Below the pieces are notes generated by a model. The model was not told the DNA's origin and did no database searches. It saw only the letters and a program-made list of their open reading frames with translations. This document shows positions 61,787 through 62,291 of a stretch of 64,000 nucleotides of DNA, piece after piece. Position 1 is the first letter of the stretch. Every line of letters starts with the position of its first letter. The stretch is from Algoriphagus pacificus (lineage in GTDB: Bacteria; Bacteroidota; Bacteroidia; Cytophagales; Cyclobacteriaceae), in assembly GCF_017254845.1 (NCBI RefSeq), contig NZ_JAFKCU010000001.1, positions 827,048-891,047 on the forward strand, written 5' to 3'. The position numbers and the translations under genes were made by a program.

Positions 61787-61827
61787 AAAAAAGAAAAGGG
61801 TCAATCCAATGCGGGATGACCCTTTTC
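61787..61827. terminator. Terminator shared by the GH43 gene and the leftward tRNA-Val transcript
   Basis: GAAAAGGGTCA (61793-61803) pairs perfectly with TGACCCTTTTC (61817-61827). On the minus strand a run of T follows, so the tRNA transcript would end here after passing both 100-base units. Confidence 0.8.
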
Positions 61828-61829
61828 TG

Positions 61830-61877
61830 TGGGACCTAGGGGTCCCGATAGCTATCGTGGACGAACCCATAACCTCT
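61830..61877 (-). pseudogene. Broken tRNA-Val copy A (3' part with palindrome in T loop)
   Basis: Compared with the intact tRNA at 62030-62104, this copy keeps the discriminator, acceptor 3' strand, T stem and variable region. AAT of the T loop is replaced by a 19-base palindrome, and the similarity stops before the anticodon stem. Confidence 0.75.
61843..61861 (-). repeat. 19-base palindromic element in copy A
   Basis: TCCCGATAGCTATCGTGGA on the plus strand. It is nearly self-complementary (one mismatch) and matches the layout of the element at 7820-7838. Confidence 0.75.
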
Positions 61878-61929
61878 TACTTCTCTATGGATTACTGACC
61901 ACTTTTACTCTTAAAGATAAAAATCAATG

Positions 61930-61975
61930 TGGGACCTAGGGGTCCCGATAGCTATCGTGGACGAACCCATAACCT
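61930..61975 (-). pseudogene. Broken tRNA-Val copy B (3' part with palindrome in T loop)
   Basis: Same structure as copy A, one 100-base period to the right, with one more change in the variable region. It lacks the 5' half, anticodon and D arm and cannot form a tRNA. Confidence 0.75.
61943..61961 (-). repeat. 19-base palindromic element in copy B
   Basis: Identical to the element at 61843-61861. Confidence 0.75.
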
Positions 61976-62029
61976 TTTACTTCTTTATGGATTACTGACC
62001 TCTTTTACTCTTATAGATAAAAATCAATG

Positions 62030-62104
62030 TGGGACCTAGGGGATTCGAACCCATGACCTCTGCCCTGTCAAGGCAGCGCTCTAAACCAACTGAGCTAAGA
62101 TCCC
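62030..62104 (-). tRNA. tRNA-Val (anticodon GAC)
   Basis: A 75-base cloverleaf read leftward: acceptor GGGATCT with AGGTCCC, D arm GCTC/GAGC, anticodon stem CTGCC/GGCAG with loop TTGACAG (anticodon GAC, codons GUU/GUC), T loop TTCGAAT and discriminator A. CCA is not encoded. The T stem ATGGG/CCCCT has a T-C mismatch at the second pair. It is flanked by a broken 5' copy upstream and two broken 3' copies downstream, in the same orientation. Confidence 0.93.
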
Positions 62105-62114
62105 AATAGACAAT

Positions 62115-62160
62115 GCGCTTTAAACCTCCCGATAGCTATCGCGGATGAGCTAAGATCCCA
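62115..62160 (-). pseudogene. Broken tRNA-Val copy C (5' part with palindrome in D loop)
   Basis: Read leftward this starts with the tRNA-Val acceptor 5' strand and first D-stem strand. Three D-loop bases (GTT) are replaced by a 19-base palindrome, then GGTTTAAAGCGC resumes the tRNA. The similarity ends before the anticodon arm. The flank just outside its 5' end also resembles that of the intact tRNA. Confidence 0.75.
62127..62145 (-). repeat. 19-base palindromic element in copy C
   Basis: TCCCGATAGCTATCGCGGA on the plus strand; same orientation and one base different from the elements in copies A and B. Confidence 0.75.
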
Positions 62161-62291
62161 ATATACTTCTCCTGAATTGCTTGCGAATATAGATCAGCCA
62201 AAACAGCTATGCAAGATTGAATAATCAGATTTCAAATCAGGAGATTGTCAAAGAAATACAGAACTAAAAATAATCCTTTAATAAATATCAG

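Follow-up and report, generated by a model that had tools for sequence, protein, structure and literature searches.

How does a tRNA gene come to be flanked by broken copies of itself in which a palindrome takes the place of loop bases? This question is raised by a tRNA-Val(GAC) locus of Algoriphagus pacificus within the 64,000-nucleotide stretch of DNA analyzed here (referred to as the window; all coordinates of the locus are window positions). A sequence-only reading had proposed a specific insertion or template-switch process directed at the loops of inverted repeats. Here, we describe the locus, follow its hairpins through the A. pacificus genome and the Bacteroidota, and consider a small nuclease gene as their source.

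RESULTS

An intact tRNA-Val(GAC) gene lies between hairpin-bearing tRNA halves

On the minus strand, the locus reads in the order TATATTCG, plugged 5′ half, intact tRNA-Val(GAC), two 100-bp units, and inverted repeat with T run. Its features are as follows.

62184..62191, minus strand: TATATTCG upstream of the displaced 5′ half, which we take to be a Bacteroidota −7-like promoter motif
62115..62159, minus strand: displaced 5′ half of tRNA-Val (acceptor 5′ strand and D arm, with a hairpin for the D loop), an architecture also found in Bacteroidota contigs
62127..62145, minus strand: D-loop hairpin (tip) TCCGCGATAGCTATCGGGA, in tRNA orientation, from direct reading and window count
62029..62104, minus strand: intact tRNA-Val(GAC), called by ARAGORN (Rfam tRNA, 64.2 bits at 62030-62104)
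61828..62027, minus strand: two tandem gene-less 100-bp units, 96% identical by alignment, without GIY-YIG relic
61928..61977, minus strand: displaced 3′ half 1 (T arm and acceptor 3′ strand, with a hairpin for the T loop), from sequence and alignment
61943..61961, minus strand: T-loop hairpin (tip) TCCACGATAGCTATCGGGA of 3′ half 1, in tRNA orientation, from sequence and window count
61828..61877, minus strand: displaced 3′ half 2 (outer), from sequence and alignment
61843..61861, minus strand: T-loop hairpin (tip) of the outer unit, in 3′ half 2, from sequence and window count
61787..61827, minus strand: inverted repeat with T run beyond both 3′ halves, a probable terminator

The anatomy given in the sequence-only reading, i.e., an unbroken tRNA-Val(GAC) gene with a displaced 5′ half on one side and two 3′ halves in 100-bp units on the other, was confirmed. 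Rfam matched the intact tRNA alone around the locus and left the broken copies unmatched. By direct reading and alignment, the 5′ copy has TCCCGATAGCTATCGCGGA at 62127-62145, then TGAGCTAAGATCCC, and retains the 3′ side of the D arm, GCGCTTTAAACC (62115-62126), with one base changed. In both 3′ copies, the plus-strand ATT (AAT of the T loop) is exchanged for TCCCGATAGCTATCGTGGA (61843-61861 and 61943-61961). The direct 100-bp units begin at 61828 and 61928, the 3′ end of the intact gene extends the series at 62028, and each unit closes with a displaced 3′ half bearing TCCACGATAGCTATCGGGA in its T loop. With one mismatch allowed, CGATAGCTATCG has three copies in the window vs 0.02 expected from shuffles. 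The hairpin indeed replaces loop bases, as had been claimed, while the count of three bases lost hinges on how the edges are aligned; the join shifts if the GGA of the hairpin is allowed to match tRNA bases. The inverted repeat proposed as a shared terminator is likewise present at 61787-61827; a terminator scan covering loops of 3 to 8 bases did not list it, probably because its loop exceeds that size.

We found no GIY-YIG gene in the window and no relic of one at the locus, and the units are therefore gene-less by direct reading. Comparing the locus with other species had been suggested as a check. Two of the four other genomes that share the neighboring 176-residue ORF, both of the same genus, have a bare tRNA-Val with no broken copy, as insertion predicts; in the other two, the fetched locus contained no tRNA. 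The two bare loci do not show the pattern that the sequence-only reading had named as its refutation, namely, identical flanking segments devoid of tRNA-Val similarity.

Hairpin tips recur at eight tRNA kinds of A. pacificus

The 5.28-Mb A. pacificus genome contains 17 copies of CGATAGCTATCG and none of the reversed pattern. With the looser tip CC(N)CGATNNNNATCG(N)GG, we obtained 42 forward rows vs 0 for the control; these rows include four second readings of one site, leaving 38 sites. Eighteen of the 38 lie within ~1.1 kb of a tRNA match over the cut-off (~0.6 expected), and these 18 are in or adjoin broken tRNA halves. Comparing 38 tRNA entries with 700 bp on either side and reading out eight loci, we found that hairpin-bearing broken halves accompany eight kinds of intact tRNA: Val-TAC, Val-GAC, Ala-GGC, Asn-GTT, Met-CAT (one locus), Ser-GCT, Arg-ACG, and Lys-TTT. 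At the Met-CAT locus, one tip sits just outside a half rather than in its loop. Wherever the half and its side could be told, the 5′ halves precede the tRNA and the 3′ halves follow it, in its orientation. The claim that the hairpin always has one orientation was refuted by the tRNA-Ala copies, in which the extra base is on the opposite side. Partial copies downstream of Asn-GTT and Ser-GGA showed no evident hairpin of the tip type.

Pseudo-copies also carry hairpins. At the Lys locus (L015/L017, contig C50), hairpins occupy the anticodon and T loops of fuller pseudo-tRNA-Lys copies, and an Arg-CCT pseudo-copy contains three clean insertions of a second palindrome, CCTGCCTGCCGGCAGGCAGG, or close variants. 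The T-loop hairpin of the Lys pseudo-copies is a diverged variant, TTCCGTACAGCTGTCGGAA. Clean insertions of CCTGCCTGCCGGCAGGCAGG in pseudo-tRNA copies were seen at L146, L331, and L167, the three in the one tRNA-Arg copy included.

The arrangement recurs in Bacteroidota

We scanned 84,980 species genomes for the D-loop tip and obtained at least 116 contigs, in which 133 tips were examined. Because the scan selects on the tip, the proportions hold for tip-bearing halves only. Among the matches listed, all 80 titled contigs are Bacteroidota of several orders, and a tRNA was in reach for 116 of the 133 tips. The nearest tRNA was on the same strand in 116/116 and downstream in 112/116 of these listed cases, and the 5′ acceptor strand of the half was identical to that of the neighboring tRNA in 102, one base off in 10, and two to five bases off in 4. 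The tRNA kinds at the listed tips were Asn (32), Val-GAC (15), Val-TAC (14), Phe (13), Met (12), Trp (9), Gly-GCC (9), and others. The 17 listed tips without a tRNA in reach lie mostly at the ends of contig pieces; two loci (L275 and L292) have a tip without tRNA despite >2 kb available downstream.

Halves and tRNAs are related locus by locus. In 85 pairs from 80 of the at least 116 contigs, the half resembles the tRNA roughly as far as the D arm reaches and loses similarity past that point, and the upstream flanks of half and tRNA have few bases in common. Among the matches listed, 51 of the 55 loci whose tRNA is a minority variant have a copy that follows this local variant, and half and tRNA match exactly in 96 of 109 cases (shuffled mean, 34; maximum, 47 in 1,000 shuffles). 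The tip loop is AGCT in 92 of the 133 tips listed, in a scan that fixed the stems and left the loop free.

Patterns that relax the tip were run on smaller sets. A tip-tolerant D-loop pattern had 43 matches in 30 of 146 relatives, of which 25, in 18 genomes, are true-type tips by reading, and the remainder looks like chance. In relatives, many of the tips lie more than 600 bp from any tRNA. A D-loop pattern fixing only tRNA bases and leaving an insert of 12 to 30 bases free had eight matches in 7 of 198 genomes of the class; six of these inserts are hairpins, one with an altered foot pair (CCCC...GGGG), and two are AT-rich non-hairpins. Exact T-loop patterns matched in only 1 and 3 of 296 genomes of the phylum, and the T-loop evidence accordingly comes from A. 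pacificus, some relatives, and loci selected by a GIY-YIG gene. The D-loop tip was found in 0 viral contigs of IMG/VR, and phage carriage was discarded as a candidate.

Two side observations concern further genomes. A genome of another family (G050) has 36 copies of CGATAGCTATCG, and at its locus L042 the palindrome is nested within a larger palindrome. In the relatives G028 and G016, a non-tRNA repeat of the approximate form GTCA-[tip]-GGAATCTCGC occurs in several copies with the same tip (L019, L049, L062-L064, L069, L071, and L073).

Small GIY-YIG nuclease genes adjoin a portion of the affected tRNA genes

A same-strand GIY-YIG gene, a partner that the sequence-only reading had not named, is present at 38 of the 116 tip loci with a tRNA among the matches listed, 22 between half and tRNA and 16 after the tRNA; the remaining 78 have no such gene nearby. 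At tRNA-Asn loci with the gene upstream, the GIY-YIG domain stops 44 to 51 bp before the tRNA in 12 of 16.

For a selection independent of the hairpin, we started from PF01541 matches instead of the tip. A. pacificus has nine such matches, seven of them small proteins (about 65 to 130 residues). Four of the seven genes adjoin an intact tRNA with broken halves, one adjoins a partial tRNA-Thr, and two adjoin neither. The partial tRNA-Thr(TGT) (L166; C23:624391) has no 5′ acceptor strand, matches the Rfam tRNA model from position 7 to 64 only, and is not called by ARAGORN. It is adjoined by plugged 3′ halves in addition to the GIY-YIG gene, and ~15 kb away is an intact tRNA-Thr(TGT) that shares its 3′ part; perhaps this is a relocated or dead element locus. 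Twelve other genomes of the phylum gave 35 PF01541 matches in open frames of <300 residues. In 8 of the 17 loci examined among these 35, a same-strand tRNA lies within 151 bp of the domain; for the other 9, ARAGORN found no tRNA in the fetched locus.

All eight tRNA-adjoining loci, read by eye, have hairpin-like insertions in the displaced half. The plugs often have other sequences, including TCCCGAAGGCTTTCGGGA, TCCCGACCGAAGGTCGGGA, TCCGGCAGAGGCCGGA, CCTGCCTGCCGGCAGGCAGG, and more, and the plug therefore looks like a structure rather than a fixed sequence, one that appears to vary by lineage with a frequent TCC..GGA foot. In a fold test, four of these eight loci had p <0.005 and one had 0.125, and three had no separate insert. 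Across 18 runs of an insert hairpin test, p was ≤0.005 for nine inserts and 0.06 to 0.60 for eight, values that understate the significance of TCC..GGA tips because the aligner assigned their last bases to the tRNA. Four runs (L323, L332, L344, and L162 downstream) had no testable insert; the hairpins TCCCGACCGAAGGTCGGGA, TCCCGACCAGTCGGGA, and TCCGGCAGAGGCCGGA at L323, L332, and L344, respectively, were identified by eye.

The nucleases have conserved catalytic residues and are under purifying selection. All five proteins tested scored 41 to 60 bits against PF01541, above the Pfam cut-off of 22.6, and seven columns (Y, Y, G, R, H, E, and K) are invariant in 43/43 aligned domains of ≥70 residues, out of 53 domain readings. 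dN/dS was 0.06 to 0.21 in seven of eight pairs, the eighth being saturated. Against NCBIfam, three of four proteins resemble group I intron endonucleases below threshold, and one had no match. In a tree of 45 of the 53 domains, based on a short alignment and with many unresolved forks, neighboring tRNA and side change label 17 times (minimum, 11; shuffled mean, 29.2; 0 of 200 shuffles as low). This clustering of clades by tRNA could also stem from vertical inheritance at the individual tRNA loci.

Away from tRNA genes, A. pacificus has two small GIY-YIG genes, at L179 (C1:1384962) and L182 (C49:95962), which form a clade with one gene of another family (support, 99/97). A general link between small GIY-YIG genes and hairpin repeats is possible. 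By eye, L179 and L182 sit among other repeats of the GTCAGTCCGAGCGGAGTCGAGGACT and CGTCATTGCGAGCGAAGCG types.

Promoter-like motifs and a probable terminator lie outside broken halves

Among the matches listed, 63 of 109 broken 5′ halves have a promoter-like motif in the 50 bp before them vs 7 of 109 intact tRNAs (background, 5%); at short-spaced loci, most of the space before the intact tRNA is taken up by the copy. In the long-spaced class (29 loci), the motif precedes the broken half in 20 and the intact tRNA in 5. The window locus has the promoter-like motif outside the 5′ half and the inverted repeat outside both 3′ halves. Given these outer positions, the simplest reading makes the outer halves the ends of the original gene and the tRNA in the middle a restored copy. 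These patterns suggest that the broken half would be the original tRNA end and that an inserted element would have restored the tRNA.

At several 3′-type loci, the terminator is duplicated as well and the simple order does not fit; at L323, L332, L335, and L344, an extra copy of terminator plus gene start follows the displaced half. Such extra copies are expected if new units enter beside the tRNA and displace older ones outward.

Loop targeting is clear in A. pacificus and weak in relatives

The proposal that hairpins are aimed at loops was borne out in part. Tips occupy the D, anticodon, or T loops of broken tRNA copies at many tRNA genes, and at two loci a tip is nested in the loop of another tip (L169 beside tRNA-Ser and L166 beside the partial tRNA-Thr). 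Away from tRNA genes, an outer stem of ≥5 pairs surrounds 9 of 22 tips in A. pacificus (shuffled mean, 1.9; 0 of 500 as high) and 8 of 49 in relatives (mean, 3.0; 5 of 500 shuffles as high). Free-standing tips in relatives are thus mostly without an outer stem, which approaches the random placement relative to loops that the sequence-only reading had named as evidence against itself. We did not retain loop targeting as a general law.

It had also been speculated that transcribed copies act as decoys or T-arm mimics. We rejected this candidate: the predicted folds of the three broken copies have z scores of +0.39, −1.55, and −1.30, and 123, 14, and 18 of 200 shuffles, respectively, fold as well. 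The two T-arm copies are predicted to favor a GGGACC-CCUA-GGUCCC hairpin over a tip-extended T arm. Folding therefore gives no good support for an RNA-level function of the broken copies.

DISCUSSION

A proposed homing-like element nested in tRNA genes

The pattern is suggestive of a tiny mobile element that settles in tRNA genes and leaves them intact. We favor, with somewhat better than even confidence, the reading that these loci are tRNA-nested, homing-like GIY-YIG elements and that the window holds gene-less units of that family. A complete element would carry one small GIY-YIG nuclease gene. Its point of entry into a tRNA gene would be close to the D arm for the 5′ type and to the T arm for the 3′ type. 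The element would bring, or repair would copy, a fresh identical half, leaving the tRNA whole, and the original half, with its promoter or terminator, would be displaced outward and get a loop hairpin, often TCC...GGA-footed. The hairpin in its loop would deprive the outer half of its tRNA character and probably also of its nuclease site.

Spread would most likely be homing-like, with the nuclease cutting an element-free tRNA locus and repair off the occupied locus copying the element in; displaced half and tRNA would act as homology arms. Loss of the gene or break-induced tandem duplication may then yield gene-less tandem units, and the units in the window may have descended from complete elements in this manner. 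The weak point of the homing reading is that the displaced half is plugged while the restored tRNA is intact and thus an apparent intact target. The restored tRNA might be spared via a changed flank, low expression, or strand-specific action. Also against this reading stand the tip loci with no GIY-YIG gene nearby (78 of 116 among the matches listed, and the window locus), the absence of the D-loop tip from the IMG/VR contigs, the few genomes matched by exact T-loop patterns, the tips and small GIY-YIG genes that have no tRNA beside them, and the two broken halves of A. pacificus that show no such hairpin.

More tentatively, the loci could represent phylum-wide minimal mobile elements, each a single small GIY-YIG gene that serves one particular tRNA and gets into its D or T arm by acting on the folded single strand; the tRNA would be restored, a loop hairpin would seal the displaced half and both mark and immunize the site, and gene-less tandem units would be left as fossils. 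We regard this full scheme as a serious conjecture that we doubt more than we believe.

Two other accounts also accommodate the nuclease genes. Partial tandem duplications of tRNA genes may be frequent, with selection retaining those copies that a loop hairpin prevents from competing in tRNA folding or processing, and with the nucleases hitch-hiking or only driving duplication. The frequent position of the copy between promoter and tRNA, where a competing 5′ half would matter, and the many different hairpin sequences, including those in anticodon and T loops, are in line with this account; however, it leaves unexplained both the one dominant hairpin core in several families (AGCT in 92/133 among the matches listed) and the per-tRNA nuclease clades, and the low identity of the upstream flanks past a few bases is unlike a plain recent tandem duplication. 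We consider it unlikely, though worth keeping in mind. Slightly less probable still is that the hairpin could be the recognition site of an Ssn-like nuclease on the folded strand, for which tRNA arms would merely be lodging places. That would fit the two non-tRNA genes, which are located among other repeats and form their own clade with one other gene (99/97), the several TCC..GGA feet with differing interiors, the nesting of tips in tip loops, and the non-tRNA tips of A. pacificus on outer stems. Against it, hairpin interiors vary widely among loci, and some feet are not TCC..GGA.

Neither of two more conventional sources of such sequences appears probable. Scars of ordinary tyrosine-integrase islands are very unlikely, although displaced 3′ halves and restored tRNA genes typify such islands. 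The spacings here are mostly 50 to 150 bp or about 350 to 550 bp, with at most a nuclease gene noted in them in an analysis that covered tRNA and GIY-YIG genes, 5′ halves are typical, and loop hairpins are not known to belong to att biology. In favor of integrase scars, phage Ms6 uses a T-loop att site (PMC1762012). REP-like palindromes moved by a Y1 (RAYT-type) transposase and landing in loops by chance would account for tips that are short, repeated, and partly away from tRNA genes. Yet the A. pacificus genome has two Y1_Tnp matches, both >30 kb from the nearest listed tip, and five of its seven small GIY-YIG genes lie beside a tRNA sequence, in four cases an intact tRNA that has broken halves and in one case the partial tRNA-Thr, making this the least probable account by our estimate. 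With no Y1_Tnp gene flanked by a palindrome in that genome, a RAYT system was dropped as a candidate.

If the homing-like reading is true, these would be among the smallest self-spreading genes in bacteria, residing inside essential genes without killing them. They would account for tRNA fragments and small GIY-YIG genes beside Bacteroidota tRNA genes, connect phage SegB biology with chromosomes, and offer a testable case of a nuclease bound to an essential tRNA gene that spares that gene. The loop hairpins provide a sequence handle for finding such elements.

Comparison with known systems

Our literature searches found no report of plugged tRNA halves, in a collection that leaves out most subscription journals, and none on GIY-YIG homing at tRNA genes in Bacteroidetes. 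Searches for GIY-YIG with tRNA genes and palindromes gave only fungal mitochondria among the matches listed, and those for GIY-YIG with REP, or with tRNA hairpins in Flavobacteria, gave nothing related.

Several known systems share part of the architecture. tRNA-targeting integrative elements insert into a tRNA gene, restore it, and leave the displaced half at the far end. The elements described here resemble tyrosine-integrase elements in tRNA gene entry, restoration, and displaced half but differ from integrase islands in their small units, in having 5′ as well as 3′ halves, and in their loop hairpins, which to our knowledge are not part of att biology; the 100-bp units of the window are too small for an integrase. 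In E. coli, the tRNA gene tyrT is followed by tandem distal repeats (rtT RNA) that each include the 3′ end of the gene, and the units in the window are arranged likewise. We know of no loop hairpin or nuclease at tyrT, in contrast to the loop hairpins and nuclease association here.

The Ssn family comprises GIY-YIG nucleases that act site-specifically on single strands and are associated with hairpin repeats. Both systems have small GIY-YIG genes in the neighborhood of such repeats; here, however, the association is mostly with tRNA halves, and the hairpin sequence varies between loci. REP/REPIN elements with RAYT transposases are short imperfect palindromes with autonomous and gene-less forms. 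The tips are likewise short imperfect palindromes, some with an extra base, and the elements likewise have autonomous and gene-less forms, but the tips are lodged in tRNA loops and, in the A. pacificus genome, have no Y1 transposase near them.

The likeness to SegB of T-even phages, a precedent for the homing-like reading, lies in the free-standing GIY-YIG gene among tRNA genes and in the tandem units. T4 segB is located between two tRNA genes (PMC2988022). In T6, SegB, a free-standing GIY-YIG enzyme, gives rise, by way of breaks and together with recombination functions, to tandem tRNA-segB units, and SegB is enriched near tRNA genes in phages, where tRNA association is widespread (PMC13096335). 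The loci reported here differ from SegB in lying on Bacteroidota chromosomes and in their small proteins, nuclease clades that track the tRNA, hairpin-plugged halves, and gene-less units.
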